From Desulfovibrio sp. (lineage in GTDB: Bacteria > Desulfobacterota > Desulfovibrionia > Desulfovibrionales > Desulfovibrionaceae), in contig JAQVYA010000013.1 of NCBI GenBank assembly GCA_028708865.1, positions 1 through 35,041 of the forward strand: a DNA stretch of 35,041 bases. The letters are read 5' to 3'. This document shows, in pieces, positions 6,567 to 34,860 of the stretch. The notes under the pieces were generated by a model. The model was not told the DNA's origin. It saw only the letters and a program-made list of their open reading frames with translations, and ran no database searches. The position numbers were made by a program, and so were the translations under genes. Each line of letters starts with the position of its first letter. Position 1 is the stretch's first letter.

Positions 6567-7178
6567 TCAAATATCGGAACCTTCGCGCTCCTCTGGTTTG
6601 CCCTTCCAAATTTCCGGCTGCTCACCAAACTCCCGTTTCGCCTCACGGTGCCCCAGGTTGAAGGCCTTGGTATTCACGTCGCGAATCTTGGCCGGCAAGG
6701 CGCTCTGCAAAGAGCTGCGCATGATACGCTGCTCCACAAAGGGAAGCAGGTAGCTGATGGCCCCCAAGACAATAGTATTCATGGCCTGCACGATTCCGAC
6801 CTTGGACGCGGCCATTTCCGTAAACGGCAATCCCAGGTACAGATTGGTCGGCGGCTGGCGCACTAAGTCCGTCTCCAGAACAAGGATGCCACCCGGTTTG
6901 AGGAAAGAATAATACGCGTTGCAGGCCTCCTGAGAAAGCGCCACAAGAAGGTCCAGGCTTTGCGCCTTGGGATAGCTAATCTTGCCTGAACTGACCACCA
7001 GATCGCAGCGGCTGGAACCGCCCCGGGCTTCCGGCCCATAACTTTGAGTCTGGGTGACCTGATAGCCATGCCCCAAGGCCAGCCCAGCCCCCAACACGCG
7101 CCCCAGGGTGATGATTCCTTGACCGCCCAGACCGGAAAGCCGAATTTCAAACCGTTCCAGGTTCACGCCTTGCTTCAT
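6567..7178 (-). CDS. korC: 2-oxoacid:ferredoxin oxidoreductase, gamma subunit (KorC type)
   Basis: 203 residues of the 2-oxoacid:acceptor oxidoreductase gamma family, starting with the nucleotide-fold motif SGLGGQGI (residues 15-22) and continuing with SYGPEARGG, a family hallmark. In KorABCD-type enzymes this subunit completes the CoA-binding half of the complex that converts 2-oxoglutarate plus CoA to succinyl-CoA while reducing ferredoxin. Its ATG overlaps the korB stop in an ATGA junction, so it is translationally coupled. It is the last gene of the operon, with the shared terminator at 6511-6541. The C-terminal 25 residues are charged and probably disordered. Specificity for 2-oxoglutarate rather than a branched-chain oxoacid is inferred from subunit layout. 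Confidence 0.9.
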   Translation of the reverse strand: MKQGVNLERFEIRLSGLGGQGIITLGRVLGAGLALGHGYQVTQTQSYGPEARGGSSRCDLVVSSGKISYPKAQSLDLLVALSQEACNAYYSFLKPGGILVLETDLVRQPPTNLYLGLPFTEMAASKVGIVQAMNTIVLGAISYLLPFVEQRIMRSSLQSALPAKIRDVNTKAFNLGHREAKREFGEQPEIWKGKPEEREGSDI

Positions 7179-8014
7179 GACTTCCGCCCCCGCATCTTCT
7201 CTTTGAGCGCATAATACTGTTCTTCCAGGCCGGGCGCGTCGTTATCCACAAACACCCCAATGGGGAACCGGTCTTTTTGTCCGGTTTCGTCCAGTTCCGC
7301 ATACCGCTCCACGGGCGTAGCGCTCTTTTTAAGCCATTTATACATATCCACGGCACCCTTGAACTTATTTTTCCGGCCGTATTGGGTATGGCAGGGGGAC
7401 ACCACCTCGACCATGCTGAATCCCGGGTGCTGCAAAGCCTGGATAAGAAGCTTGTCCAGCTGCTGCGCGTGGAACGAAGTGCCCCGGGCCACAAAGTTGG
7501 CCCCGGCAGCGCGCGCCAACTCGGCCACATCGAAGCCCTTTTCCAGTTGGCCGTAAGGTGATGTCATGGAAAATGAACCATGCGGCGTGGTGGGCGAACA
7601 CTGGCCCCCGGTCATGCCGTAAATGTTGTTGTTCAGGACCAGAGCCGTGATCCCGATGTTGCGGCGAGCCGCGTGAATCAAATGGTTGCCGCCGATGGAC
7701 AAGGCATCCCCGTCGCCCATGAGGCAAATAACCTTGAGGTGCGGCTTCGCCATTTTGATGCCTGTGGCAAAGGTCAGGGCGCGGCCGTGCGTGGTATGCA
7801 CCGTGTTGAAGTCCACATAGACAGCCAAGCGTCCGGAACATCCGATACCGGCCACGATGACCACGTCATCTTTTTCCAGCCCCAGACAATGCACACTGCG
7901 GATCAGGGCCCCCAAAGCGATGCCATGACCACATCCCGGGCAAAGCACATGGGGAAATTTCTTGTTGTGCCGCAGATACTTATGAATAATATGGTTCCCA
8001 ATAACTTCGGACAT
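7175..8014 (-). CDS. korB: 2-oxoacid:ferredoxin oxidoreductase, beta (thiamine-PP) subunit
   Basis: 279 residues. The thiamine diphosphate-binding motif GDGDALSIGG ... NNNIYGMTGGQ (about residues 99-138) is clear, and the CPGCGHG motif near residue 24 is typical of KorB/IorB-type beta subunits. It binds thiamine diphosphate and decarboxylates the 2-oxoacid together with the alpha subunit. The length matches short beta subunits of the four-gene KorDABC layout. It starts two bases after the korA stop with AGGTG upstream. The segment SPTTPHG is the metal/diphosphate loop seen in 2-oxoglutarate-type enzymes. Confidence 0.93.
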   Translation of the reverse strand: MSEVIGNHIIHKYLRHNKKFPHVLCPGCGHGIALGALIRSVHCLGLEKDDVVIVAGIGCSGRLAVYVDFNTVHTTHGRALTFATGIKMAKPHLKVICLMGDGDALSIGGNHLIHAARRNIGITALVLNNNIYGMTGGQCSPTTPHGSFSMTSPYGQLEKGFDVAELARAAGANFVARGTSFHAQQLDKLLIQALQHPGFSMVEVVSPCHTQYGRKNKFKGAVDMYKWLKKSATPVERYAELDETGQKDRFPIGVFVDNDAPGLEEQYYALKEKMRGRKS

Positions 8015-8016
8015 GG

Positions 8017-9168
8017 CTACACCTGCATGATCGCCTTGAGGATTTCCGAGGGCGTGATGATCTGGCCGTCAACGCGGTTCAGGGCGCGCACTGTGGCCCT
8101 GCCGTTGTTCACCCGTTTCACCTCGCGTGAGATCTGCCCCATGTTCATCTCCGGCACCACCAAGGCCCGGGCATGCCCCATGACCTTTTCGGTGGCGGCC
8201 CGGGGATACGGGAACAGCGTCTTGAGCTTGAGCAAGCCTGCCTTCACCCCCCGCTCCCGCGCCTGCTCCACGGCGTATTCAGCAGATCGGGCCACTGAGC
8301 CGTAAGCCACCACGCACACGTCGGCGTCGGCGCAGAGGTATTCTTCGTACAGCGAAACCTGAGGCAAAAACTGGTCAATCTTGCGGAACATCCGTTCCAT
8401 AAGATCCGCCACTTCTTCGGGGCGGGAGGTCGGGAATCCGTTGGGATCATGCGTCAGTCCCGTAACGTGAAAACGGTACCCCGAGCCGATGGGCGGCATG
8501 GGCGGCACTCCACGCACTGTCTCCTCGAACGGCTTGTACCACTCCGGCGGCATGGTCGGCACCACCCGATTAAAGACTTCGTATTCATCCTCGCGGGGGA
8601 TGGTGATTTTTTCTCGCGTATGGGCTGTGATTTCGTCCAGCAAAAGTACCACCGGGGTCCGGTACTTCTCGGCCATATTAAAAGCCGTGATGGTCATTTC
8701 CAAACATTCCTGAACATTGGAAGCCGAAAGCACGATCATGGAATGATCGCCATGAGTGCCCCAACGCGCCTGCTGTACATCCCCCTGGGCCGGACTGGTG
8801 GGCAACCCAGTGGACGGGCCACCGCGCATTACATTGACCAGCACCAGGGGGGCTTCCACCATACAGGCATATCCGAGGTGCTCCTGCATCAGGGAAAACC
8901 CAGGCCCGGACGTGGCGGTCATGGCCTTGCATCCGGCCAGGGAAGCGCCGATCACCGCCCCCATGCTGGCAATCTCGTCTTCCATCTGGAGGAAAACGCC
9001 GTTATCGTTTTTTGGCAGGCGCTGTGCCATGACCTCCATGATTTCACTGGAAGGCGTGATGGGGTATCCGCCATAAAAAGAGCACCCTGCAAGCAAGGCC
9101 CCTTCCACTACGGCCTCGTTGCCGAGTGCAAACAGTTCCTTCCGCTTTTTCTTTCTGCCCGCTGCCAT
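8017..9168 (-). CDS. korA: 2-oxoacid:ferredoxin oxidoreductase, alpha subunit
   Basis: 383 residues. The N-terminal pyrimidine-binding domain has the signature GGYPITPSSEIME (about 33-45) and the ATSGPGFSLMQEHLGYA motif of KorA/PorA proteins. The C-terminal part (about 265-380) is the transketolase-C-like domain (CADADVCVVAYGSVARSAEYA). With KorB it forms the decarboxylating core. A lysine/arginine-rich stretch, RKKKRKE, follows the start. The ATG at 9168 has GAGGCGGTGAG upstream and lies 11 bases from the korD stop. Confidence 0.94.
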   Translation of the reverse strand: MAAGRKKKRKELFALGNEAVVEGALLAGCSFYGGYPITPSSEIMEVMAQRLPKNDNGVFLQMEDEIASMGAVIGASLAGCKAMTATSGPGFSLMQEHLGYACMVEAPLVLVNVMRGGPSTGLPTSPAQGDVQQARWGTHGDHSMIVLSASNVQECLEMTITAFNMAEKYRTPVVLLLDEITAHTREKITIPREDEYEVFNRVVPTMPPEWYKPFEETVRGVPPMPPIGSGYRFHVTGLTHDPNGFPTSRPEEVADLMERMFRKIDQFLPQVSLYEEYLCADADVCVVAYGSVARSAEYAVEQARERGVKAGLLKLKTLFPYPRAATEKVMGHARALVVPEMNMGQISREVKRVNNGRATVRALNRVDGQIITPSEILKAIMQV

Positions 9169-9179
9169 GTCTCACCGCC

Positions 9180-9401
9180 TCACTTGGGGCACCGTTCGAT
9201 TTCCGTAACCACAATGGCGAAATCGGGACAGTGCAGTTCGCAGAATCCGCAATGGATGCAATCTTCTTCACGCACAACCCGGGCCTTTCCCTGGCCGTCC
9301 AGTTCAATGACCTTGGCCGGGCAGAAGGCAACACATATGCCGCAGCCCTTGCACCAGTCCGGGTAAATGGTGACCTTGCTGTTTCCTTTCTCCTTGGCCA
9401 T
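9180..9401 (-). CDS. korD: 2-oxoacid:ferredoxin oxidoreductase, ferredoxin-like delta subunit
   Basis: A 73-residue dicluster ferredoxin with two CxxCxxCxxxCP motifs (C17, C20, C23, C27 and C48, C51, C54, C58), so it should carry two [4Fe-4S] clusters that pass electrons from the thiamine site to soluble ferredoxin or flavodoxin. The ATG at 9401 is used because it directly precedes the compact domain and has GGTGGGG upstream; the frame continues to 9500 without features. It is the first gene of korD-korA-korB-korC. Confidence 0.9.
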   Translation of the reverse strand: MAKEKGNSKVTIYPDWCKGCGICVAFCPAKVIELDGQGKARVVREEDCIHCGFCELHCPDFAIVVTEIERCPK

Positions 9402-9608
9402 GACCCCACCTGAAAAAAGGTTGATGAACAATCTTGACCGTGAAACCGGCCTGCACCACGTGTTCAAACGCCCGTACAACGCTGTTCCAACGGTTGCCAA
9501 ACTAACGGATATACGAATCGGCCACTACCACCATTATAGGGCCTTTGCAAACGCTTTCAAAAATTTGAAGGAGTACCCTGTTTTTTCAACAGGGCAAAGC
9601 AGCATGAA

Positions 9609-15580: not shown

Positions 15581-16810
15581 CTAGGAGTTGAGTTCTCGTT
15601 CCTGAGGAAACACCGGCAAGTAGCGGTACGACAACGTCAAAACCAGCAGCCCGTAGGCCACAATCATCAGACTGGTGGCGTACTCCGACCAGTTCGGCGC
15701 ATACGTGTACCACTTGTCAAAAGGCATCACAGGCAGCGCCAGGGTCTGCACCGTGAATACATAGCGGTTGATCACGATTCCGGTGCAGTTCAGCAGTGCT
15801 GCGGTGTACAGCATCCACGGACGATTGCGGAACGCGGGCACGATGAGCATGATGGCCGGAACCAGTCCGCAAACAATCAACTCGGACCAGAACAGCCACT
15901 TCCCGTAAATTAGCCCGTAGAACATCTGATCAAAGGTAAAGCCCATACGGGGAAGCACGTCAGTAGCCCAAGCCCAGGTGTCCAGATACTTGAAGAACAA
16001 GTACAGGCAAAGCATGGAACCGGCGATTTTTCCCATAAGCGCCTTAACTTTGTATTCCACCAACTTCTTCCCCGTAACCTTTTCCATAATGGTGCAAATC
16101 AGCACGGTGAACACCGGGCCAGACGCAACAGCGGAAAGCACGAAGAGGAAGAACGTCCACGGCCAGATAAAGAACCCGTCGCGGTAAGCGTAGGGGCGGC
16201 CGATGAGCACACCATACATGCCACCCAGGGACCCCTGGTGGAAGGTGGAAAGGAAGGTGCCGATACCGGCGAACAACGCCATATGCACATGCATGTTGTG
16301 CGCCAGGGCATGGATGAACTTGTTCCGGTTCAACTGCTTCTGTTCCAGGATCAACGGAACGAATTCAATGATCAGCACGGTGCAGTAACAGGTGATACAG
16401 AAAATAACTTCCGTGAGCATGGAATGGACGTTGGGATGCCAGTAGCCAAACCAAGCACGGCCGGGCTGCCCGATGTCCATGGTCAGAATCAACATGGCAC
16501 CGGAGTAGCAGATGAAACCGACAATCACGGTAAGGTTAATGATTTTCTCAAGTTGCTTGATCTTGAGGATATACTTCAGGAAACCCGAGAAAAAGGCTCC
16601 CGCGCCCAGGGCAATGACCGCCAGGTCAAAGGTGATCCAAAGGGCGAACCCAAAGTAGTTGTCCATGGCCGTCACGCCGATCCCATTGTAAAAAATCAGG
16701 AAAGACGCGTAAACACCCCAAAGCAGCATGGCGCTGATGAAGCCGAGCCAAAGCAAATACTGGCCAAAGGAACATCGGGTGGCGCCTTCCGGGAAGAGCT
16801 TGCTATCCAT
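15581..16810 (-). CDS. qrcD: Menaquinone reductase, NrfD-like membrane subunit QrcD
   Basis: 409 residues with about ten hydrophobic membrane segments, belonging to the NrfD/PsrC family of quinone-interacting proteins without haem. In the Qrc complex this subunit holds the menaquinone site. The identity rests on the gene order cytochrome - molybdopterin-like - iron-sulfur - NrfD, matching qrcABCD. The ATG at 16810 has GGAGGAGGG directly upstream and is 12 bases from the qrcC stop. It is the last gene before the terminator at 15526-15555. Confidence 0.93.
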   Translation of the reverse strand: MDSKLFPEGATRCSFGQYLLWLGFISAMLLWGVYASFLIFYNGIGVTAMDNYFGFALWITFDLAVIALGAGAFFSGFLKYILKIKQLEKIINLTVIVGFICYSGAMLILTMDIGQPGRAWFGYWHPNVHSMLTEVIFCITCYCTVLIIEFVPLILEQKQLNRNKFIHALAHNMHVHMALFAGIGTFLSTFHQGSLGGMYGVLIGRPYAYRDGFFIWPWTFFLFVLSAVASGPVFTVLICTIMEKVTGKKLVEYKVKALMGKIAGSMLCLYLFFKYLDTWAWATDVLPRMGFTFDQMFYGLIYGKWLFWSELIVCGLVPAIMLIVPAFRNRPWMLYTAALLNCTGIVINRYVFTVQTLALPVMPFDKWYTYAPNWSEYATSLMIVAYGLLVLTLSYRYLPVFPQERELNS

Positions 16811-16822
16811 GGTCCCTCCTCC

Positions 16823-17662
16823 TTATTCGTGGCCCTGAGAGGCTTGTTTGACAGCGGAATTGTGGTCCCCGGCAGCATGGTTGTCACCCTGCTCACGGAC
16901 CCATTCACGCTTGCTCATGTAGTAAACCTGCGGATCCAGGCCAAGCTTTTCCAGCAGGCGGAAGCTATGGGGGCTCTTGGCCAACTGGGCCACCTTGTGC
17001 TCGGGGTTATTCAAATCGCCGAACACGATGGCCCCGGTGGGGCAGGCCTCCACACACGCGGGCACATAGTACCCTTCAGGCAATTCCATGGGATCAATGC
17101 CTTCTTCCCGGGCGCGATCCTTGGCCTTCATGTAGCGTGTATGGCAGAAGTTGCATTTCTCCACCACTCCGCGCGGGCGTACCGAGGCGTTGGGGGACAG
17201 GGTCTTGTCCATGCCGTCCGGCCAAAGCGGATCCCACCAGTTAAAGTACCGGGCATGGTAAGGACAGGCCGCCATGCAGTACCGGCAACCAATGCAGCGC
17301 GGATAGATCTGGCTGACGATGCCGCCTTCCTCGTTCTTATCCGTAGCCACGACAGGGCAAACCGGCACGCAGGCGGGATGCCCGCACTGCATACAGGGGC
17401 GGGGCAGGTACGCCACATCATGCTCGGGGAACGCCTTGCCGTTGTTCAGCTCATAGACGTTCAGCCAAGTGAGCGTCCGGAGCTTGTTGGAGGGATCATC
17501 CCGCTTGGTGGTCATCATTTGCAGATGGTTATGCGGGTCCTCTTGAGTCATGGGGGCGATATTGTTCTCGACTTGGCAGGACACCATGCACGCGCCGCAG
17601 CCCGAGCACTTGTCGATGTCGATGACCATGCCCCACTTGATTTTGAATTCTTTTACTTGCAT
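16823..17662 (-). CDS. qrcC: Menaquinone reductase, iron-sulfur subunit QrcC
   Basis: 279 residues of the DmsB/NrfC-like ferredoxin family, located on the periplasmic side in Qrc. Four cysteine clusters are visible: CSGCGACMVSC (C19-C29), CMQCGHPACVPVCP, CIGCRYCMAACP and the split CNFC ... CVEACP. These would give four Fe-S clusters linking the cytochrome and QrcB to the quinone site of QrcD. There is no Tat signal of its own, consistent with export together with the Tat-bearing QrcB. Starts 11 bases after the qrcB stop. Confidence 0.94.
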   Translation of the reverse strand: MQVKEFKIKWGMVIDIDKCSGCGACMVSCQVENNIAPMTQEDPHNHLQMMTTKRDDPSNKLRTLTWLNVYELNNGKAFPEHDVAYLPRPCMQCGHPACVPVCPVVATDKNEEGGIVSQIYPRCIGCRYCMAACPYHARYFNWWDPLWPDGMDKTLSPNASVRPRGVVEKCNFCHTRYMKAKDRAREEGIDPMELPEGYYVPACVEACPTGAIVFGDLNNPEHKVAQLAKSPHSFRLLEKLGLDPQVYYMSKREWVREQGDNHAAGDHNSAVKQASQGHE

Positions 17663-17673
17663 TTCGGTCCCCC

Positions 17674-19671
17674 CTACATTTTGGCAATGGTCACGGCAGA
17701 GCCGGTCCAGGCGGACCCACCAGACCCGGCACTCACTGTCAGGAGCTTATAGACATTGCCGCCTTTGCCCATGGAGAATTCGTCCCAGGCGGTGTGACCA
17801 AAGCCGAGCGGAGCGGCAACCACGCCGGGCATCACGCCCTCGTCCACATGCACCAAAGCCTGGCACTCCACGCCGTTGGCCGACAGCCGGACCTTGGAAC
17901 CGGCCTTGAGGCCGTTGGCCTTGGCGGTTTCAGAGTTGATACGGACAAACATCTGCTTGCCCTGAAGTTCGGTATCGCGGATCGTGGTCGGGTTATGCGG
18001 AGTCGTGGCCATGCTGGCGGAACCAATGTGCAATTGAGAGTAGGCATACAAAGCCAGTTGCCCGGAGGTCTTGTCCGCATCGGACAGGGCCGGCAGCCCC
18101 AGCCCCACGGAATAGGAACCTACGGTCCCCACTGCGGCCTCCGCAGCTTCGGCCTTGGCCTCCAGCACTTCCTCAAAGTTCTCGAACCCGAGGTCCAGCC
18201 CCATTTCCGCGGCCAAATCCAAGGCGAACTGCGGAGCGCCCATCACGTCCAGCGAAGGTTTGACCACCGGAGAAGAAGCCACATACGTGGTATTGGCCAC
18301 ACCAAACGGATTCACGAGATCGTCATACCGTTCAAAGGGGTGCGCCGCGGGGAGCACCAGGTCCGCCACGGCCGCAGTCTCGTCCTTGAACGTACTGAAT
18401 GCCACTGTGAATTCGGCCTTTTCCGCAATCTTCTCCCCATATTGCGGCAGTCCATACACCGGGTTGGCGTCGTAAATCAGACAAACCTTGGGAGCAAACG
18501 CCCCGGAGGCTACATCGGCAGGCAAATCCTTGGCAAAACGGGTGGGACGATCCAGCGCGGAGCCGAGCACGGGCTCCACTTCCGGCAGCGCCACCATGCC
18601 GCCCCAGGTATTCATGCGTCCCAGGAGCAGGTTTACGATGATGCCCGCAGCAGCCACAGCCGGGCTGCATCCATAATCCGCCACCACGACAGGGGCGGAG
18701 GCTCGCAGCAATTTTCCGGCCAACTCGGCCAGAGACTTCTTGCTCACCCCGGTCAGCTTCTCCACTTGAGCCGGAGAATACTTGGACGCCAGCAGGCTGC
18801 GCAACGCGGCAAAGTCACCGCTTTCCAGATACCGCCCCTCAGTGATCAGATTGTAGGCCAGCCCCAGCAGGAAGGCGCTCATGCCTTCGGGGTGCACCGG
18901 CACCCAGGAATCACAGACCGAGGAGGTGTGATTGCGGGCCGGGCCAGCGTATACATAAGTGGACTTAGCCTTTTCTCCGGCAGGATGACTTTCGGCAAAG
19001 GCGTTCATGTTGCTGACCGTGGGCCCCCAGGAGCTCAGGGCATCGGCCCCGGCAAACAGCACGAAATCCGATCCTGCGATGTCGTAACCGATTTGCCCCT
19101 CTCCCCCCATCAGGCCATTCCAGGCCCGGGTGGCCGCCATCTGCGGGCTGGGCATCATGTAGTAGTCATCACTGCCAAGTTCAGCCAGCAAGGCCGAGAA
19201 AACCTCGTTGCCTGATCCTGTATCGTCGCCGGAAATCACGGCAACGGAGGAGCCGGCGGCCCCGAGTTTTTCTGCGAGCAGTTTCTTGGCCTCGTCCCAG
19301 CTAACAGGCTGGTATTGCCCCTCGCCGGTACGGACCATGGGGCCCTGCACACGGGTGGGGCTGTACAGCAGGGGTACGGCGTCCGCACAGATGGGGCACA
19401 GCCCGCCCTTGCTCAGCGGATTGTCCTCATCCCCGGTGGTGGAATAAGGCTCACCGCCCACGGTTTCCACCCGCAGGGCGCAACCCGAAGGACACAGCTT
19501 ACTCACCGCCGGGACGCGTTCCTCGACCCCTTTTTTCAACGTCGGAATCCAGCCCCAATTCTGGGTCCAGATGGAAACGTCGTCCAAAGTCTTCCAGATC
19601 ACGGGGGTGACGAGCAGGCCCAGCGTGCCACCCACGGAGAATTGTATGAATGCTCTGCGATTCAAACCCAT
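17674..19671 (-). CDS. qrcB: Menaquinone reductase, molybdopterin-oxidoreductase-like subunit QrcB
   Basis: 665 residues. A twin-arginine signal with RRAFIQF at residues 5-11 and a hydrophobic stretch to about 24 shows Tat export. Four cysteines near the N terminus (C60, C64, C92, C95, spacing C-x3-C-x27-C-x2-C) could bind one Fe-S cluster. The rest is a DMSO-reductase-family fold shorter than true molybdoenzymes; QrcB proteins are known to lack the molybdenum cofactor, and I see no clear metal-ligand residue. The ATG at 19671 is chosen because AAGGGG precedes it and it directly starts the Tat signal; the frame runs on to 19734 as shadow of qrcA. Confidence 0.93.
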   Translation of the reverse strand: MGLNRRAFIQFSVGGTLGLLVTPVIWKTLDDVSIWTQNWGWIPTLKKGVEERVPAVSKLCPSGCALRVETVGGEPYSTTGDEDNPLSKGGLCPICADAVPLLYSPTRVQGPMVRTGEGQYQPVSWDEAKKLLAEKLGAAGSSVAVISGDDTGSGNEVFSALLAELGSDDYYMMPSPQMAATRAWNGLMGGEGQIGYDIAGSDFVLFAGADALSSWGPTVSNMNAFAESHPAGEKAKSTYVYAGPARNHTSSVCDSWVPVHPEGMSAFLLGLAYNLITEGRYLESGDFAALRSLLASKYSPAQVEKLTGVSKKSLAELAGKLLRASAPVVVADYGCSPAVAAAGIIVNLLLGRMNTWGGMVALPEVEPVLGSALDRPTRFAKDLPADVASGAFAPKVCLIYDANPVYGLPQYGEKIAEKAEFTVAFSTFKDETAAVADLVLPAAHPFERYDDLVNPFGVANTTYVASSPVVKPSLDVMGAPQFALDLAAEMGLDLGFENFEEVLEAKAEAAEAAVGTVGSYSVGLGLPALSDADKTSGQLALYAYSQLHIGSASMATTPHNPTTIRDTELQGKQMFVRINSETAKANGLKAGSKVRLSANGVECQALVHVDEGVMPGVVAAPLGFGHTAWDEFSMGKGGNVYKLLTVSAGSGGSAWTGSAVTIAKM

Positions 19672-19687
19672 TGCAGCACCCCTTTTC

Positions 19688-20440
19688 TTACTTGTGGCAC
19701 ACGTAGCAGGCGTTGCTTTGGTGCATCTGGGCATGGCACCGTTCGCACTGCCACATTTTCATGGTCATCTTGCTGTAGCCGGTCATCACGTTCTCCTGGA
19801 AGGGAGGCGTGTCCGAGCGAAGATGAATGTCCTCGAGGTGGCAAAGATTGCAATTGGTCCCGTCTTCGGCATCGGCCTCGGCGGCCTCGGCCTCACCGTG
19901 TCCGCCCTCCAGGGCCGCGACTTGGGCCATGGTCAGATCGGCGTGCGCCTTGTGTGAGAAAAACACGTTGTCCGGCTGGAACTGGTAGTTGTACCAAGGC
20001 ACTTCCTTGCCCTGCGCGAGATACTTGACGATGAACGCGCGCTCGGCCTGAATGTCCTCAGGCTCGGCGCTCAAGATCAGATAATCCAGCGCCTCAGGCC
20101 CCTCCTCCTGCTTGAGCACATCCTCAATGTTGTCTGGGCTGCCGGTGACCTCCGCCAAGGCATCCACCAGCTCCTGCGGGTCGCCAATGTCGTGACACAT
20201 GGCGCACTCTTCGTTCGTGGGGAATCCGGCAAAGGAGCCGTCCTCACGGAAGTAGTGACAGTCCTCGCAGAGCATTCCCTGCCCCTCCACGTGGGCCACA
20301 TGGCTGAAGCGGAACGGCTGTTCCTTGTCGACAAAGAGGATGTCGGGGAACAGCACCCACCCTGCGACCGCAACCACCAGGAAACCCAGCAGGAACGGAA
20401 GGGCTCCACCGTACTGTTTCGATGCTCTCATTTCCTCCAT
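19688..20440 (-). CDS. qrcA: Menaquinone reductase, multihaem cytochrome c subunit QrcA
   Basis: 250 residues with one N-terminal membrane helix (about 12-31), which anchors it facing the periplasm. Five CxxCH haem-binding motifs are visible: CEDCH (58-62), CAMCH (79-83), then CNLCH, CERCH and CYVCH in the C-terminal third; all ten cysteines are used by them. It takes electrons from the periplasmic type I cytochrome c3 and passes them into the complex. An acidic Ala/Glu stretch lies between the two haem groups. Start choice is uncertain: ATGs at 20452, 20440 and 20431 are all possible; 20440 is used because MEE precedes the helix directly and GGGGCAGG lies upstream. Confidence 0.9.
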   Translation of the reverse strand: MEEMRASKQYGGALPFLLGFLVVAVAGWVLFPDILFVDKEQPFRFSHVAHVEGQGMLCEDCHYFREDGSFAGFPTNEECAMCHDIGDPQELVDALAEVTGSPDNIEDVLKQEEGPEALDYLILSAEPEDIQAERAFIVKYLAQGKEVPWYNYQFQPDNVFFSHKAHADLTMAQVAALEGGHGEAEAAEADAEDGTNCNLCHLEDIHLRSDTPPFQENVMTGYSKMTMKMWQCERCHAQMHQSNACYVCHK

Positions 20441-20506
20441 AACCTGCCCCATCACTCCTAGAGTTTTTTGAAAAACCACAAAAAACGGCCAAATGAATTA
20501 CGTTCC

Positions 20507-26160: not shown

Positions 26161-26193
26161 AAAAAAACGGGACGGAACAAATGTTCCGCCCCA
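26161..26193 (-). terminator. Terminator of the transporter-ferredoxin-cysteine protein operon
   Basis: An 11-bp stem GGGGCGGAACA / TGTTCCGTCCC (one G-T pair, two-base centre, 26169-26192) followed on the minus strand by seven T residues, 30 bases after the stop of the gene at 26223. Confidence 0.9.
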
Positions 26194-26222: not shown

Positions 26223-26855
26223 TCAGGACTCAGCGGCCACAATCCGTTCCAACACACTTTCCGCCTTGCAGGTATTGAATATACCGCAAAGGCACGGCCG
26301 GGTCAGCTTGCTGGCGGCCTTCTGAATCGTGGTTTTCCCCTTGCGAATGTCTGCCACAAGCTTTTCCACCAGACCGGGAGTGACCATGGCGTGACCGCAC
26401 ATGGTGCAGATGTCCAGGACAGGCCGGGGCGGCAGCTTATCCAAGGCGCCATAGACCCCCAGGCTGAAGTTGTAGGAATGGGGCGTGAGTCCCACCTTTT
26501 CCGCACATTCGCGGACATGGTCCAGCAATCCGGAAACCACAACGGAAAAACCGTAGTCCTTTTCCTTGATTTCCTTAAGCACTCCGGCCAGATCCTCGCG
26601 GTTACGGAAGACGGCGTGCACCATGGGCGCATCGTCGCAGGCGTTGACCTTGAGTTCTTCCGGCGTATTGTCCACCAGCAGGCCGATTTTCATGCCACCG
26701 ATGTTCACCGGATTGTATTTCTTGAATATATCGATGTATTTCCCATACTTTTCCACGACGTCGTCATTGTTGACCCCGCGGGCGGGCATGACCAGCACCA
26801 CGTAATCCATTTCCGGCTGCGCGGTATCCTTGATGCGATGAAGCGTATGCGACAT
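26223..26855 (-). CDS. Cysteine-motif protein of unknown function
   Basis: 210 residues, soluble, not recognised. The N-terminal two thirds alternate strands and helices (DYVVLVMPARGVNNDDVVEK, GGMKIGLLVDNTPEEL, GFSVVVSGLLDHVRECAEKVG), like a Rossmann-type or two-layer alpha/beta fold. The C-terminal third holds a CxxC (C150, C153) in ICTMCGHAM and a C-x-C-x5-C (C188, C190, C196) in PCLCGIFNTC, so a metal or Fe-S site is likely. It starts 37 bases after the ferredoxin-fusion gene with AGAGGA upstream and ends the operon. A CGGC-domain-like redox protein is a loose alternative. No function is assigned. Confidence 0.75.
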   Translation of the reverse strand: MSHTLHRIKDTAQPEMDYVVLVMPARGVNNDDVVEKYGKYIDIFKKYNPVNIGGMKIGLLVDNTPEELKVNACDDAPMVHAVFRNREDLAGVLKEIKEKDYGFSVVVSGLLDHVRECAEKVGLTPHSYNFSLGVYGALDKLPPRPVLDICTMCGHAMVTPGLVEKLVADIRKGKTTIQKAASKLTRPCLCGIFNTCKAESVLERIVAAES

Positions 26856-26892
26856 TGTTCTTCCTCTTGGTTGTCGGTTCCGCAGTGCAGGA

Positions 26893-27621
26893 CTACGCCT
26901 GGAACAACGGGCGGCCCAGCCCCATGTTGACCTTGGTGGAGGTATTTTCAAAGGTGATGCCCCGGTCGCGGATAATGTCCTCCGCCGGGCAGCGACCCTG
27001 TTCATCCGTAGCCGCGATCACGCCCACGCTGAAGACCGTGTCCACTTCCTTGGCCACCTCTTCAAACACCTTGAGGATCGGGTCCAGATTCTCAATGGCC
27101 AGTTTGAACTCCAGGATGCAGGATAACACTTTCTCGTTTTTAATGCTCGGTTCGAGCAACCCTTTCTCCTGGTCGATCAACAGCTTGGTGGTAGGATTGT
27201 TCTGATCGTAGGCCAGCACATACGGCGCAATGGCCATGGTGATCTTCTCCACATCGGCGAAACGCGCTCCCACCAGAGGACGGCCTGGCTCAACAGCCAT
27301 GGCGATATAATCCACACCGTAGACCAGTCCGGTCACGTCGTTGGTCTTGACTTCCTCGGTTCCTCGGCCCAAATGGCCCAGGTCGGTGTTCTCATGCTTG
27401 CCCAGCGGATCGCTGAAGGCCTTGCGGATGGAACGCGGCATTTGCAGGGCTTCCTGATATAAGGCACCGGTGGGACACTTGCTGGTACGCTGACAAAGGC
27501 AGCATTCCACACATTCGTCCTGGTCAATGACCACTTCTCCATCCACCATGCTGATGGCACCCACGGGGCAAAACGGAACACAGATGCCGCATGCCTTGCA
27601 CTTTTCGTAATCGATCTTCAT
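26893..27621 (-). CDS. Dicluster ferredoxin fused to an unknown domain
   Basis: 242 residues. The first 55 form a ferredoxin domain: a normal CxxCxxCxxxCP (C8, C11, C14, C18) and an altered second motif C37-x2-C40-C41-x-C43-x5-C49-P with one extra cysteine and two extra spacer residues. Residues 60-242 are a domain I do not recognise, with DVTGLVYGVDYIAMAVEPGRP, an Asn/Thr/Lys-rich loop and the end VNMGLGRPLFQA. The ATG at 27621 has AAGGAGTT upstream; the longer frame to 27852 is shadow of the transporter. It lies between the transporter and the cysteine-motif gene in one operon, so it probably passes electrons to whatever acts on the imported substrate. Confidence 0.8.
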   Translation of the reverse strand: MKIDYEKCKACGICVPFCPVGAISMVDGEVVIDQDECVECCLCQRTSKCPTGALYQEALQMPRSIRKAFSDPLGKHENTDLGHLGRGTEEVKTNDVTGLVYGVDYIAMAVEPGRPLVGARFADVEKITMAIAPYVLAYDQNNPTTKLLIDQEKGLLEPSIKNEKVLSCILEFKLAIENLDPILKVFEEVAKEVDTVFSVGVIAATDEQGRCPAEDIIRDRGITFENTSTKVNMGLGRPLFQA

Positions 27622-27679
27622 TTCAACTCCTTGAAAACGGCCGTTGCCGGTTATCGTACGTTCAGGGGTTTCGGGGCCG

Positions 27680-28981
27680 TCAGATGCCGATGCCCACGGC
27701 ACTGACCAGCAACCCGGCCAGTACGAGCACGATGGAGCCGCCGATGCGCGAGGCATAGGCCGAGTACGGCAGGATCTCCAGACGCTCGGCCGCGGCCAGG
27801 GTGGCCAGGTCACCGGTCTGAGCCATGTTGGCCATGCACAGTCCCCCAGCAATGGCGGATTCGATGGGATACAGCTTCAGCAGCATGCCGACGAATCCGG
27901 CACCGATAACGCTGCCAAGCACCGTGAGCAGAGCGATGGTCACGTAGGCCGGGTTGGACACCGCGGCGATGACCTGCGTCATGTCCATATATGCGATGCC
28001 AATGGGCACCAGGGCTGCAAAAAGCAGGTTCTTCACCCAGGTTTGGGACCAATGAATGGTGGAGACCTCCAGCTTTTCCGGCAGCATCTTTGCGGCTTTG
28101 GCCAGCGTGAGCAGCAGGATGAGCCAGACAAAGGTATGCACACCGGGGGCCAGGAAGCGATTGATGGCAAAGGCGGCCAGGAAGAAGGTCACGCTGATGA
28201 AAAAGCCCACGCCCAGCCCGTCAATGGTGATGGGAATGGCGTCGCGCTGTTTCTTCTCTTCGTCCAGGGAGGCACGCAACTCGGAGTCGTCGATCCGCAT
28301 GATCTGGCCGTACCCCGTAAGGGAAGGTATTTTCTTGCCCACTTTGTTGAGCACGATGGCAAAGAGGATGGCAATGATGTTGCCAAGCACCACGGCAGGC
28401 ATGACCACGGAAAGCATCTGCTCGGTAGTCATGGCCGCGGACTGGGAATAGATCTGGGACAGGGGCAATGCGCCGGCTCCCACGCCTCCGCCGATAATGG
28501 GCACGGCCAGCATCATCACGGCTTTTACCGCGCCGTACCCGGTCACCAGGCCGCCTAGAGCCGCCAGAGCGCAGCCGCACAAAATGGCGGCCACCACAGT
28601 AGGCAGAAACTTAAGCGTGGATTGCAGCAAAATGCGGCGGGAAATGGACAACATGGCGCCGCAAATAAGGAAGGTAATGAAGAAATTGAAAAAGCTCGGG
28701 GAAGCCTTCATAAATTCCTTCATGATTCCAATAGTTTCTGTCGGCAACAAGCCGAAGTAAATCATCAGGGCCGGCCCAAAGATACACATGATGGGCCCGC
28801 CACCCAGCCAGTTTTTAATGAACTTGACGCGGGTTCCCAGTTCTCCGAACACGATTCCCAGGATGAACATGAGCCCATAGGCACCCATTACGTCGTTGGG
28901 CAAATTGTGCGTATACACCAGGAGCATGACAAGCACTGTCCCGACGAGCACCACCGGCCATGTTAGGTTTTTGATGGTCAT
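27680..28981 (-). CDS. 2-hydroxycarboxylate transporter (CitS/2HCT family)
   Basis: 433 residues with about eleven membrane helices. The two re-entrant loop motifs of the family are visible: PIIGGGVGAGALPLSQIY (about residues 163-180) and AGGLCMANMAQTGDLATLAAAERLEILPYS (in part, near 390). Family members are symporters or exchangers for citrate, malate or lactate. The C-terminal re-entrant segment normally ends in an arginine or similar that binds the carboxylate. The ATG at 28981 has GAGGAG upstream. It leads an operon with the fused ferredoxin and the cysteine-motif protein. Confidence 0.88.
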   Translation of the reverse strand: MTIKNLTWPVVLVGTVLVMLLVYTHNLPNDVMGAYGLMFILGIVFGELGTRVKFIKNWLGGGPIMCIFGPALMIYFGLLPTETIGIMKEFMKASPSFFNFFITFLICGAMLSISRRILLQSTLKFLPTVVAAILCGCALAALGGLVTGYGAVKAVMMLAVPIIGGGVGAGALPLSQIYSQSAAMTTEQMLSVVMPAVVLGNIIAILFAIVLNKVGKKIPSLTGYGQIMRIDDSELRASLDEEKKQRDAIPITIDGLGVGFFISVTFFLAAFAINRFLAPGVHTFVWLILLLTLAKAAKMLPEKLEVSTIHWSQTWVKNLLFAALVPIGIAYMDMTQVIAAVSNPAYVTIALLTVLGSVIGAGFVGMLLKLYPIESAIAGGLCMANMAQTGDLATLAAAERLEILPYSAYASRIGGSIVLVLAGLLVSAVGIGI

Positions 28982-29683: not shown

Positions 29684-30133
29684 CTACAGCAAATTCAATT
29701 CCGTCTTATAGCGTTGAAGCATGACACTGGCGTTGACGTTGTTGATTCCCTTGATGGGATAAATCTTACTGCGCAGGAAATCCGCCAGGTGATTGTTGCT
29801 GCGCAAAAGCGCGTGGGCATGGAGGCTCACATTGCCGGTCATCAGGTAAACCACCATGATTTCGTCAAGCTTGCTCAATTCACCGGCAACGCTTTCAATA
29901 AATTGCGGGTCCACTTCGATATCCAAGAACGCGGAGCATTCGTAGCCGATGGCGATATTGTCAATCAGTGGAATAAACTTTTTGATCACCCCGCGCTTAC
30001 GAAGCTTGTTGATCCGTTCCCGCGCCCCCACCCGGGAAAGATCCACATGCTGGGCAATCTGGGCAATGGGCATGCGCCCGTCCTCCATAAGTAGTTCAAG
30101 AATTTTTTTATCGATACTGTCCAACTCAGCCAT
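29684..30133 (-). CDS. Lrp/AsnC family transcriptional regulator
   Basis: 149 residues. The N-terminal winged helix-turn-helix (SIDKKILELLMEDGRMPIA to LRKRGVIKKF, residues 6-52) is followed by the RAM ligand-binding domain (about 65-145, with VYLMTGNVSLHAHALLRS). Such regulators sense amino acids and act as dimers to octamers. The ATG at 30133 has GGAGAG upstream. It sits between the hydroxycarboxylate-transporter operon and the oxoacid oxidoreductase-Ptb-Buk operon, either of which could be a target. An AT-rich palindrome AATTTAAATT just upstream (about 30148-30158) may be an autoregulatory site. Confidence 0.93.
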   Translation of the reverse strand: MAELDSIDKKILELLMEDGRMPIAQIAQHVDLSRVGARERINKLRKRGVIKKFIPLIDNIAIGYECSAFLDIEVDPQFIESVAGELSKLDEIMVVYLMTGNVSLHAHALLRSNNHLADFLRSKIYPIKGINNVNASVMLQRYKTELNLL

Positions 30134-30535: not shown

Positions 30536-31459
30536 CTAGGAGCCTGCCCCCTGAGCTCTGGCCGCCACCATGGAGGCCAGGATGGACCGCATTTTGTCCT
30601 CGGTGGAGTCCGTGCGCGAAGTCATGATGATGGGGCTGTTGGCACCGGTCACAATGCCCGCAGTTTTGAGTCCGGCGATATGCACGAGGGCCTTGTGGGT
30701 CATGTTGCCCGCATCCAGATTCGGCGCCACCATGATATCGGCATTGCCCGCCACGGGTCCGGATATCCCCTTCAACTGCGCCGCTTGCGGAGAAACAGCC
30801 AGATCCAGGGCCAGAGGGCCGTCCACGTCCGCATCGCCGAAACGTCCCCGATCCCCCATCTTGGCCAGCAGGGCCGCATTCACGGATGACGGGATATCCG
30901 GATTGACCACTTCCAGCGGGGCAACAACGGCCACACGCGGCCGCGCACAGCCCAGGTTACGAGCTAGGTTCACGGCGTTTTGGACAATGGCTGCCAACTG
31001 ATCCAGATCCGGAGCAATGTTCACGGCGCAGTCACAAATCAACCGCAGCCGATCACCAGCAGGCTCCTCATAAATGGTGATCTGATTCAAAAGCCCGTTC
31101 TTGGGCACAATGCCCAGCTCCTTGTCCAACAAAGGACGCAAAAAATACGAGGTATGCATGTGCCCCTTCATTGGGGCAGCAAACTCCCCTGAGGCAACGC
31201 CCCGAGCAACGTATTGCCCGGCCTGTTTTCCGTCAGGCTGGTCCACGATCTCAAAGCCGTCCGGGGACTCTCCCTCACGATCCAGTAGGGCTGTGATCTT
31301 TCGGGCATCCCCTACCAGCACGGGCCGCACCACGCCGGCGTCCCGAGCACGCAGCACCGCCCTGAGGATCAATTCATCCTCGGGACAGGCCACACCAATG
31401 CGGGCCGGATGCGCATTTGCCTGCCAATGCTCCAGCATTTCATTAAACGAACAAAACAA
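30536..31459 (-). CDS. ptb: Phosphate butyryltransferase-type acyltransferase
   Basis: 307 residues of the phosphate acetyl/butyryltransferase family: PVLVGDARKI, MKGHMHTSYFLRPLLDKE, CDCAVNIAPDLDQLAAIVQNAV and PVAGNADIMVAPNLDAGNM are all family motifs. The length and the lack of an N-terminal extension fit Ptb rather than Pta. It converts a short-chain acyl-CoA plus phosphate to acyl phosphate, which Buk (next gene upstream) uses to make ATP. The TTG at 31459 is proposed as start: the AAGGAG beginning in the buk stop codon lies 7 bases upstream. The first ATG (31438) has no ribosome site and would cut 7 residues. Confidence 0.9.
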   Translation of the reverse strand: MFCSFNEMLEHWQANAHPARIGVACPEDELILRAVLRARDAGVVRPVLVGDARKITALLDREGESPDGFEIVDQPDGKQAGQYVARGVASGEFAAPMKGHMHTSYFLRPLLDKELGIVPKNGLLNQITIYEEPAGDRLRLICDCAVNIAPDLDQLAAIVQNAVNLARNLGCARPRVAVVAPLEVVNPDIPSSVNAALLAKMGDRGRFGDADVDGPLALDLAVSPQAAQLKGISGPVAGNADIMVAPNLDAGNMTHKALVHIAGLKTAGIVTGANSPIIMTSRTDSTEDKMRSILASMVAARAQGAGS

Positions 31460-31470
31460 TGGTATTCTCC

Positions 31471-32595
31471 TTAAGCACAAATTTGTTGTTCATGCTCCAC
31501 CTGCTCCGGCAACAACCCGGGAGCGCCGGAAAGTTCCCGACAGGGACGCACCCCGGTCAACGCCGCAAACGCTCCCAAGGCCAGGGACTGCATCTCGTCT
31601 TCCCCAGGATAGACGAACACTGGAGCGACAAAGCGAACCCGGTCGGCAATGGACTCGGTCACACGGCGGGAATGAGCGATGCCCCCCGTGAACAACACGG
31701 CATCCACTTGACCGCGCAACACCGTGGCCATGGCTCCGATCTCCTTGGCCACCTGGTAGCACATGGCCTCGAGGATATATTCGGCTCGGGCGTCGCCTCC
31801 TTCAATGCGGCGCTCCACCTCGATCATATCCGTGGTGCCAAGATGCGCCATGACCCCGCCTCGTCCGTTGATCTTCTCCAACAGCTCTTGTTTGGTGAAC
31901 CTTCCGGAAAAGCACAGCTCCACCAGGTCACCGCTGGGCAACGTGCCAGCACGGGATGTGGAAAACGGACCGTCCCCGTCCAACGCGTTGTTGGCATCCA
32001 CAAGGCAGCCCTGCTTATGGGCGCAAACGGAAATTCCGCCGCCCAGGTGCACGCCCACAAAGCGACTTTGTTCGTACACGAGATTCTGCTCACGGCAATG
32101 GCGCATGGCCGCCGCTTTCTGATTCAGGACATGGAAACTGCTCTGTCGCCGCAGCTCGGGCATGCCCGTCACCCGGGCCAACGGTTCAAACTCATCGGAC
32201 ACAGGAGGATCCACCACCATGGGCACGCAATTCCATTCCGCGCCCAACTCATGAGCCAGCACCACTCCCAGGTTGGTGGCATGCAGCCCCCAACGGCCGC
32301 TTTGCACGTCATCAAGCATCAGTTCGTTGATGCGATAGGCTCCGCTGGGCAGAGGCCGGGTCTGTCCGCCACGACTCACGATGGCGGTGAGGCTTTGTTG
32401 TTCGATGCTGTGGCGCTGCAAAAAATCCACGATCACGGCCCGACGCATGGGCCGCTGTTCCAGGAGCGATGCAAAGCGCATGATCTGCTCCTGCTCGTGC
32501 TGCACGGTTTCCCGTACCTGGAGGTCCTCGTCCAGATACCAGGCCATTTTGGTGGAAGTGGAACCAAAATTAATGGCCAAAATGGAGTGTTGCAT
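31471..32595 (-). CDS. buk: Butyrate kinase-type short-chain acyl kinase
   Basis: 374 residues of the acetokinase/butyrate kinase family. The phosphate-binding start is ILAINFGSTSTKMA (residues 5-18), and VGVHLGGGISVCAHKQG, NALDGDGPFSTSRAGTLP and DAVLFTGGIAHS are characteristic of Buk. It transfers phosphate from butyryl or branched acyl phosphate to ADP. The ATG at 32595 has AAGGAG upstream. It follows the oxidoreductase beta gene after a 143-base gap with a strong hairpin (32639-32671) and is followed by ptb after 11 bases. The order kinase then transferase is the reverse of the common clostridial ptb-buk order. Confidence 0.94.
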   Translation of the reverse strand: MQHSILAINFGSTSTKMAWYLDEDLQVRETVQHEQEQIMRFASLLEQRPMRRAVIVDFLQRHSIEQQSLTAIVSRGGQTRPLPSGAYRINELMLDDVQSGRWGLHATNLGVVLAHELGAEWNCVPMVVDPPVSDEFEPLARVTGMPELRRQSSFHVLNQKAAAMRHCREQNLVYEQSRFVGVHLGGGISVCAHKQGCLVDANNALDGDGPFSTSRAGTLPSGDLVELCFSGRFTKQELLEKINGRGGVMAHLGTTDMIEVERRIEGGDARAEYILEAMCYQVAKEIGAMATVLRGQVDAVLFTGGIAHSRRVTESIADRVRFVAPVFVYPGEDEMQSLALGAFAALTGVRPCRELSGAPGLLPEQVEHEQQICA

Positions 32596-32738: not shown

Positions 32739-33647
32739 TCAGGAAGCCAGCTTGTTCAGCAGATTCCATTTACGAGTCACATCATCCTGTAACTGCTGGA
32801 TTTCTTCCTCAGTCAGATGACGGAACCGGCGTTGTCCGGCAATGAACTCGGACACGGGACGCGGCTTTTTCCCGGCGCGCAGAGACGGCCTGGAAATGGT
32901 AAACGTACCGTGGTCATATTCGAAAAGCGGGAAGTACAGCGATTCCACCGCGGCCCGGGCATATTGAATGCTCTGATCCGGCTTCACGCCCCATCCCGTG
33001 GGGCAAGGGCTCATGATATGCAGGTAGCACAGGCCGTCCTTCACTTCGGTGGCCCGTTGGACCTTGTTCACAAAATCCTGGACATGACTCGGGCACAGGG
33101 TGGCCACATACGCGGCATCCTGTGTAGCCAGCATCAGCGGCACATCCTTTTTGAACCCCACGTTGCCCCGGCTGTAAGGGCCGAAAGGCGAAGTGGACAT
33201 ATGCGCCCCGTGCGGGGTCGTGCCGCTTTTTTGAAAGCCCGTGTTCATGTAGCCTTCATTGTCGTAACAAAAGTATATGATGTTCTCGCCCCGCTCGGCC
33301 GCAGCGGACAAAGTCTGCAACCCTGAATCCACGGTGGCGCCGTCACCGGCGAACACTACGCAGTGCACTTCCGGATCGATTTTGGCGTACGCCTGCTTCA
33401 CTCCGGCCATCAGGGAAGCGCTGTTACCCAGCAAAGGCATGACCACCGGAGTTTTCATGCCGGTCTTCAATCCCCAGCCCGGAACGCCGACGCCGGCGAT
33501 GCATCCCGGAGGCACTCCCAGGACCGTCTTGGGGCCGAGCACCTTGAATGCGGTCCGCAGTGACAACTCCGCGGGACAGCCCTGACAGGCGGACAAGCCC
33601 GGGGAAACCAGGTCTTCATTATTCATAAGTGTATCCATCGTGCTCAT
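32739..33647 (-). CDS. 2-oxoacid:ferredoxin oxidoreductase, beta (thiamine-PP) subunit
   Basis: 302 residues of the pyruvate/2-ketoisovalerate oxidoreductase beta family. An N-terminal CQGCPAELSLR (C21, C24) and the thiamine diphosphate motif GDGATVDSG ... CYDNEGYMNTG (residues 101-137) are clear. The segment SGTTPHGAHMSTSPFGPYSRG is the loop shared by Por/Vor beta subunits. Coupling to buk and ptb argues for a branched-chain or broad 2-oxoacid substrate (Vor) rather than pyruvate, but this is inferred from context. The ATG at 33647 has GGGAGAAGAG upstream and is 13 bases from the alpha stop. Confidence 0.9.
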   Translation of the reverse strand: MSTMDTLMNNEDLVSPGLSACQGCPAELSLRTAFKVLGPKTVLGVPPGCIAGVGVPGWGLKTGMKTPVVMPLLGNSASLMAGVKQAYAKIDPEVHCVVFAGDGATVDSGLQTLSAAAERGENIIYFCYDNEGYMNTGFQKSGTTPHGAHMSTSPFGPYSRGNVGFKKDVPLMLATQDAAYVATLCPSHVQDFVNKVQRATEVKDGLCYLHIMSPCPTGWGVKPDQSIQYARAAVESLYFPLFEYDHGTFTISRPSLRAGKKPRPVSEFIAGQRRFRHLTEEEIQQLQDDVTRKWNLLNKLAS

Positions 33648-33660
33648 CTTCTCTTCTCCC

Positions 33661-34854
33661 TCAGTCTTGCAGCATGTCAGGTCGGAGCCAGACCGTGTCT
33701 TCCAGCGATTTGTCGTGTTGGGCGCATTCGTGCACCAGGTCGATGACCCGGGCCACATGGTCCTTGCGGATATCGGCTCCTCCGAGCCCCCCCACGGCGG
33801 AAAGGGTCGGCACGTTCAGACGCGCCTTGCCCAGGGCTCCAAGCACTTCCTGGTAAACAATGCCTGACGACCAGCCGAAATTGACACTCTTGTCCACCAC
33901 GCCCACGGCCTTGCGGCCAGCCAGCAATTCCCCAAGCTGGATAGAGGGGAAGGGGCGCAGGCAACGCACGCGGATCAGGCCCACTTTCCGGCCTTGGGAA
34001 CGGGCATCATCCACCGCATCCTTGGCCGCACCGCTGAGCGCTCCGATGACCACAAGCACCTCATCCGCATCCTCCAACCGGTAGGTATCCAATAGCCCGC
34101 CATAACTCCTCCCAAAAACCTCGGCGAACTTCGCGTCGGCCTGCTCAATCACGGACAGGGCCTGCTTCATGCTCCAGAGATGATCTTCGCGGTATTCCAT
34201 CATCAAATCGCCCGGCGTGTTGCCGTCCACCATGCACGGAGCGTTCACATCGAGCATCTGGCGGACATTGGGCGCAGGCAAAAAAGCGTCCACCTGCTCC
34301 TGGTCGGGCATGCTGACGACTGCGGACTGGTGGGAAAGGTAAAAGCCATCGTAGCAGACGTGCACGGGAATCATCACATCAGGATGCTCCGCGATCATGT
34401 ATCCTTGTATGATGCTGTCCAGAATTTCCTGGTTGCTTTCCGCGTAAAGATGGATCCATCCGGCATCACGCACGGAATGGGTGTCTTGCAGGCCGCTCCA
34501 GACCGTTACCGGGGAAATCATCTCGCGGTTGGCAATGGCCATGACCATGGGAATGCGGGCCGTGGACATGCTGAAATACGGCTCATACATAAAGGCCAGT
34601 CCCTGCCCGGAAGTGGCGGTAAAAACCCGCTCGCCCATCATGCCCGCCCCCTTGAGGATGCTCATGACGGAATATTCGGACTCCGGAGAGATGAACTCAC
34701 CGGACATTTCGCCGTTGGCCACCATGGCGGCCAGATACTCCACCACGGAAGACTGCGGGGTGATGGGGTAGCCGACCACACGGTCCACCTTGCAAAGCCG
34801 CACCGCATGGGCGGCACACTCGTTGCCAGTCAATGCATCACGTGTTTCCAACAT
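33661..34854 (-). CDS. 2-oxoacid:ferredoxin oxidoreductase, alpha subunit
   Basis: 397 residues of the PorA/VorA family. The N-terminal domain has VVGYPITPQSSVVEYLAAM (about 27-45) and FTATSGQGLAFMYEP; the C-terminal domain (about 255-390) carries VLVVIGALSGAAKDAVDDA and ends in the region that contacts the gamma subunit. With the beta subunit it forms the thiamine-dependent decarboxylating core. It differs clearly from KorA at 8017-9168, so two separate enzymes are encoded in the window. Six bases separate it from the delta gene; GGAG lies upstream. Confidence 0.93.
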   Translation of the reverse strand: MLETRDALTGNECAAHAVRLCKVDRVVGYPITPQSSVVEYLAAMVANGEMSGEFISPESEYSVMSILKGAGMMGERVFTATSGQGLAFMYEPYFSMSTARIPMVMAIANREMISPVTVWSGLQDTHSVRDAGWIHLYAESNQEILDSIIQGYMIAEHPDVMIPVHVCYDGFYLSHQSAVVSMPDQEQVDAFLPAPNVRQMLDVNAPCMVDGNTPGDLMMEYREDHLWSMKQALSVIEQADAKFAEVFGRSYGGLLDTYRLEDADEVLVVIGALSGAAKDAVDDARSQGRKVGLIRVRCLRPFPSIQLGELLAGRKAVGVVDKSVNFGWSSGIVYQEVLGALGKARLNVPTLSAVGGLGGADIRKDHVARVIDLVHECAQHDKSLEDTVWLRPDMLQD

Positions 34855-34860
34855 CTGCCA

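Follow-up and report, generated by a model that had tools for sequence, protein, structure and literature searches.

A conserved ferredoxin fusion and cysteine protein pair linked to organic-acid metabolism genes

A 35,041-nucleotide stretch of Desulfovibrio sp. DNA (the window) carries adjacent genes for a ferredoxin fusion of 242 aa (FD) and for a cysteine protein of 210 aa that begins MSHTLHR (CYS), and sequence comparison indicates that the two proteins very likely constitute an obligate two-protein unit. This is because FD lies directly upstream of CYS on the same strand in 74 of the 75 CYS genes read in context (median gap 12 bp), and because the distance matrices of the two proteins correlate with r 0.885, compared with at most 0.143 in 2000 permutations. 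The single CYS gene without an adjacent FD sits at a contig end. The data favour an iron-sulfur pair that serves organic-acid metabolism and is connected with electron flow through ferredoxin and NAD.

The protein family appears to be undescribed, and counts as new within the reach of three libraries and a limited literature search. That search, which covered CODH contexts, a benzene-activation cluster, 2HCT, Ptb/Buk and TTT, returned no description of the pair, and no relative of FD or CYS of characterised function was found. Our preferred reading, held tentatively and at somewhat below even probability, is that FD and CYS may together form a single iron-sulfur protein, each contributing one subunit, in a family that has no name; its most likely function would be that of an oxidoreductase working on the imported acid or on the first product made from it.

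By profile search, CYS occurs in 29 of the 395 genomes sampled from the Desulfobacterota-like phylum, with up to seven copies per genome, and in 3 of 300 from the phylum to which one archaeal match belongs. The complete QrcABCD set of the window, taken together with its other genes, points to a sulfate reducer related to Desulfovibrionaceae, and the phylum name follows from that inference. A single-sequence search returned CYS relatives in the class of the window genome and in Bathyarchaeota, with FD adjoining in each; the wider scan relied on exact peptide patterns taken from a single sequence, and it says nothing on absence from other phyla. Plasmid and phage collections gave no match.

Sequence and predicted folds of FD and CYS

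FD (26893-27621, minus strand) begins with a 2[4Fe-4S] ferredoxin domain. Residues 1-60 match Fer4 over the cut-off and resemble clostridial ferredoxins, with [4Fe-4S] motifs at residues 8-18 and 37-49 and eight cluster cysteines, all of which are kept in 54/54 relatives. FD differs from such ferredoxins in the C-x5-C of its second motif (C37-x2-C40-x2-C43-x5-C49) and in always carrying about 180 extra residues of no known family. Further invariants among the 54 proteins are G87, K92, GRP at 113-115, K230 and G234. An earlier note on this DNA had described a ferredoxin fused to an unrecognised domain of this length, and Fer4 is indeed the only family named.

Both proteins had also been called unknown, and profile searches bear this out. 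Against Pfam, NCBIfam and PDB-chain profiles, neither the C-terminal domain of FD nor CYS was assigned a family, and the members scanned gave only scattered single-member matches. The best profile match shared between CYS members, PF22746, was found in 6/58 (best E 6e-4). One marginal match aligned residues 144-199 of glycerate kinase 2b8n with positions 37-92 of the FD C-terminal profile (E 0.003). Homology was not accepted at this value and the match is probably due to chance, though the ligand of that enzyme is a 2-hydroxyacid.

CYS (26223-26855, minus strand) is invariant at M1, R7, C153, G154, H155, C188, C190 and N194 in 58 proteins. The earlier note had singled out a CxxC motif (C150, C153) and a CxC-x5-C motif (C188, C190, C196). 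Three of these cysteines, C153, C188 and C190, stand as invariant; C150 and C196 vary among the 58 relatives. A single five-cysteine motif was therefore rejected, as two of its five members are not conserved.

Confident AlphaFold2 models of FD (pLDDT 90) and CYS (pLDDT 93) place a ferredoxin-like domain, beta-alpha-beta-beta-alpha-beta by strand and helix order, at about residues 101-205 in the C-terminal part of FD and at about 14-111 in the N-terminal part of CYS, where it precedes a C-terminal part that holds the invariant C153, H155, C188, C190 and N194. Common ancestry of the two domains was tried and rejected (hhalign probability <3%). The nearest solved structures have common ferredoxin-like folds and include the aspartokinase ACT domain and PII-like SbtB. 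This raises the possibility that the pair is a sensor or regulator, whose ACT/PII-like domains would bind the acid along with a redox signal and thereby modulate the transporter or the operon; the frequent position of the pair beside transporters would suit such a role. However, these matches are weak: Foldseek gave no E at or below 0.001, all Z were below 8 and many unrelated folds were tied, in searches with models of the whole proteins; the separate domains may still have a known fold. The predicted fold match points to no specific function or family. The operons also carry FadR or Lrp regulators of their own, and the archaeal copies of the pair do not lie beside transporters. A sensory role is, overall, the least probable of the explanations considered here.

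The transporter and catabolic genes of the window

In the window, the pair belongs to a minus-strand gene series running from a 2HCT-family transporter (27680-28981) through FD to CYS, with gaps of about 60 bp and about 40 bp, respectively. It closes with an intrinsic-terminator-like hairpin and T tract (26168-26193, minus strand). The strong terminator claimed previously is a good pattern match, with an 11-pair stem (26193-26168) followed by seven T. The claim of a 2HCT-type transporter is equally well founded, with a Pfam 2HCT match at E 9e-119 on the minus strand (28981-27680). Against the curated 2HCT profile, the protein scores 397 bits (cut-off 26.2) and covers positions 3-414 of 415, a whole-length likeness to CitS and other family members.

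2HCT proteins occur in 20/297 genomes of the class. In the single-sequence search only four of these 20 had a CYS match, namely the window genome, G182, G196 and G133, and in G133 the FD-CYS pair adjoins a TTT transporter. The three pair-linked 2HCT proteins form one long-branched clade with support 100/100, in a tree into which two loci were entered twice owing to overlap. They are further set apart from other copies by AQTG in place of GGTG in the second loop.

CitS coordinates citrate through Asn186, Arg402 and Arg428 (PMC4718727), whereas the pair-linked transporters have Val and Met at the first two positions and keep Arg only at the position of Arg428. Citrate is thus unlikely as the transported substrate, because two citrate-coordinating residues are absent from the carrier. 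The Met at the Arg402 position is common to other 2HCT copies of the class. The window transporter also scores below the NCBIfam ccs and CitS cut-offs.

The earlier note had described these three genes as a cassette with no enzyme for citrate, malate or lactate in the unit. The lack of an enzyme holds within 26223-28981 but not immediately upstream, where conserved minus-strand genes encode an Lrp/AsnC-type regulator (29684-30133), a phosphate butyryltransferase-like protein (Ptb, 30536-31480), a butyrate kinase (Buk, 31471-32595) and two subunits of a 2-oxoacid:ferredoxin oxidoreductase (OFOR). Buk scores over its curated cut-off, and its start is taken as the Met of MQHSILAINFGS; the start of Ptb is provisional. 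The OFOR beta subunit (32739-33740) is PadI/VorB/PorB-like, and the alpha subunit (33661-34860) is closest to phenylglyoxylate dehydrogenase PadG; both starts are provisional. POR_N, PFOR_II and TPP-binding domains are all present across 32739-34860. The closest relatives of this OFOR are the phenylglyoxylate dehydrogenase subunits, below that family's cut-off, and its subtype is unsettled because no equivalog cut-off is reached. The remaining subunits would lie past the window end.

OFOR alpha and beta, Buk, Ptb, Lrp, 2HCT, FD and CYS occur together in three genomes, those of the window, G182 and G196. Gene order in G182 is that of the window. In G196 it is OFOR alpha-beta-2HCT-FD-CYS-Buk-Ptb in one direction, with Lrp divergent; OFOR alpha-beta is preceded there by an OFOR gamma subunit and a small match to ferredoxin. 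The window cassette is part of a larger catabolic module. The idea of a self-contained three-gene system was abandoned, since the unit includes catabolic enzymes and almost every other copy of the pair lies without 2HCT.

Together, OFOR, Ptb and Buk would, by the established chemistry of their families, convert a 2-oxoacid to a carboxylate with ATP gain. The step left over in the window pathway is that from hydroxyacid to oxoacid, and the preferred oxidoreductase would fill it. The diverged 2HCT carrier would import a 2-hydroxycarboxylate, which FD-CYS would convert to a 2-oxoacid; OFOR would then oxidise this to an acyl-CoA, from which Ptb and Buk would make ATP. Substrate may bind close to both a putative metal site in CYS (C153, H155, C188, C190) and the Arg/Lys/Glu motifs conserved in the C-terminal domain of FD. 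Electrons would travel via the two [4Fe-4S] clusters of FD and reach free ferredoxin or, in loci that have a CooF/FNOR module, that module and NAD. Oxidation of a 2-hydroxyacid with ferredoxin as acceptor is, however, thermodynamically uphill, which counts against this reading.

The same DNA had earlier been suggested to encode a redox module acting on, or sensing, the transported acid. A redox module is a reasonable description, given the lack of a known family, the conserved unit and the links to carboxylate transporters and to ferredoxin and NAD redox genes; the choice between acting on the acid and sensing it is not settled by sequence.

Neighbourhoods of the pair in other loci

Importers of several kinds (TTT, TRAP, MFS, ABC Liv-type and 2HCT) lie within 6 kb of the pair in 30/65 loci, compared with 2/20 other stretches (Fisher p 0.003). 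These counts come from 65 loci that include related genomes, and so are not independent, and from 20 hand-picked control stretches of the same genomes, searched with families drawn from the pair loci themselves. Within the same distance, FNOR was found in 20/65 loci, CooF-like proteins in 19/65, CODH-like proteins in 18/65, FadR-type regulators in 14/65 and AOR in 7/65, each against 0/20 controls. Other neighbours named by profile are a GlcDF-like fusion and tartronate semialdehyde reductase-like, DHDPS-family, PanB-like, aldehyde dehydrogenase and CaiB-type proteins. The neighbouring enzymes are diverse across loci, and no single chemistry is therefore evident. This diversity counts against the oxidoreductase reading, as do the copies that lie apart from transporters and enzymes. 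Such copies are found in Bathyarchaeota (L010-L012) and at L110 and L112; in Bathyarchaeota, two tandem FD-CYS pairs occur with no transporter or clear enzyme adjoining (L010:2094-4921; L115).

The redox enzyme adjoining the pair also differs by locus, being AOR, the GlcDF-like fusion, aldehyde dehydrogenase or OFOR. Alongside the fully conserved ferredoxin part of FD, this suggests that the pair could instead be an electron-transfer adaptor that links substrate dehydrogenases (OFOR, AOR, GlcDF-like, the FNOR module) to the electron carriers of the cell. Set against this are L017 and L080, where only the pair and a transporter are nearby, and the many conserved charged residues of FD-CYS that fall outside the cluster ligands. 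In addition, the OFOR of G196 seems to have a ferredoxin of its own, since the small ferredoxin match there is separate (L014:12546-12680, between OFOR gamma and alpha). We consider an adaptor unlikely, though the most probable of the rival explanations.

Some neighbours hint at other chemistry. DHDPS-family aldolases and tartronate semialdehyde reductase-like proteins, together with KDG kinase-, KDPG aldolase- and altronate dehydratase-like ORFs recognised only by eye in L074 and L094 that would suit 2-oxo-3-deoxy acids, are consistent with a hydroxyacid dehydratase or epimerase. In such an enzyme C153, C188 and C190 would hold a metal or [4Fe-4S] site that serves as Lewis acid, maintained or activated by the ferredoxin part. 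The three invariant cysteines of CYS could accommodate a cluster that has an open site, by analogy with Fe-S hydro-lyases. H155 could, however, complete a four-ligand site with no open position, and the strict retention of two full electron-transfer clusters and the recurrence of NAD-linked redox genes also argue against this chemistry. We rate it as somewhat less likely than an adaptor role.

Returning to the preferred oxidoreductase, the FNOR genes of pair loci point to its possible coupling with NAD, as their nearest match is PadH, through which phenylglyoxylate dehydrogenase is linked to NADH. Both the window OFOR and these FNOR proteins thus resemble Pad subunits, with the same type of electron carrier, but, apart from the generic ferredoxin domain, neither FD nor CYS matches an OFOR subunit. 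CODH-fold proteins (about 490-575 aa) stand beside FNOR and CooF-like genes in L015, L016, L062-L064, L066, L067, L075 and L076, as well as in L079, L082, L083, L101, L103, L106 and L107, and the CODH-like context recurs across several distinct clades in the tree of the pair. This arrangement resembles the Ni-CODH/FNOR gene clusters described in the parts consulted of two accounts (PMC6344411, PMC13056359), and those parts make no mention of the pair. The likeness does not extend to the CODH-like protein itself, whose score of 187 bits falls far short of the cut-off of 478. Most copies appear to lack C-cluster cysteines in an alignment read by eye, to a degree that varies by locus (L062 keeps most). 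CO oxidation by these neighbours was rejected on both grounds.

A broader proposal, somewhat doubtful at present, is that FD-CYS represents a new class of two-subunit iron-sulfur enzymes in bacteria and archaea, with an expansion into many substrate-specific paralogues in the Desulfobacterota-like phylum. Such enzymes might catalyse the entry step of anaerobic hydroxy- or oxo-acid breakdown, with possible NAD coupling via a CODH-fold relay whose active site is largely lost. If the pair is an enzyme, this would explain organic-anion use by many uncultured anaerobes that lack an annotated entry enzyme. It would also provide a function for a large family without a name, which reaches seven copies per genome, and hint at what degenerate CODH-like proteins do. 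The 2HCT cassette is a small pathway that lends itself to testing, since its importer and downstream steps are defined.

Minor observations were made in other loci and elsewhere in the window. Two FD relatives, L110:3878-4723 (plus strand) and L112:5977-6867 (minus strand), have by eye an N-terminal twin-arginine and cysteine signal-like sequence (RRDFLLGSAAG...AGC), which suggests possible export; the adjoining CYS proteins show no signal sequence by eye. A second OFOR in the window (6567-9524, minus strand) is of KorCBA type, with gamma, beta and alpha subunits assigned by profile, and a small ORF in this region (9180-9524) had no profile match at the threshold used. The window also encodes a complete QrcABCD menaquinone reductase complex (15581-20497, minus strand), with all four subunits over their cut-offs.
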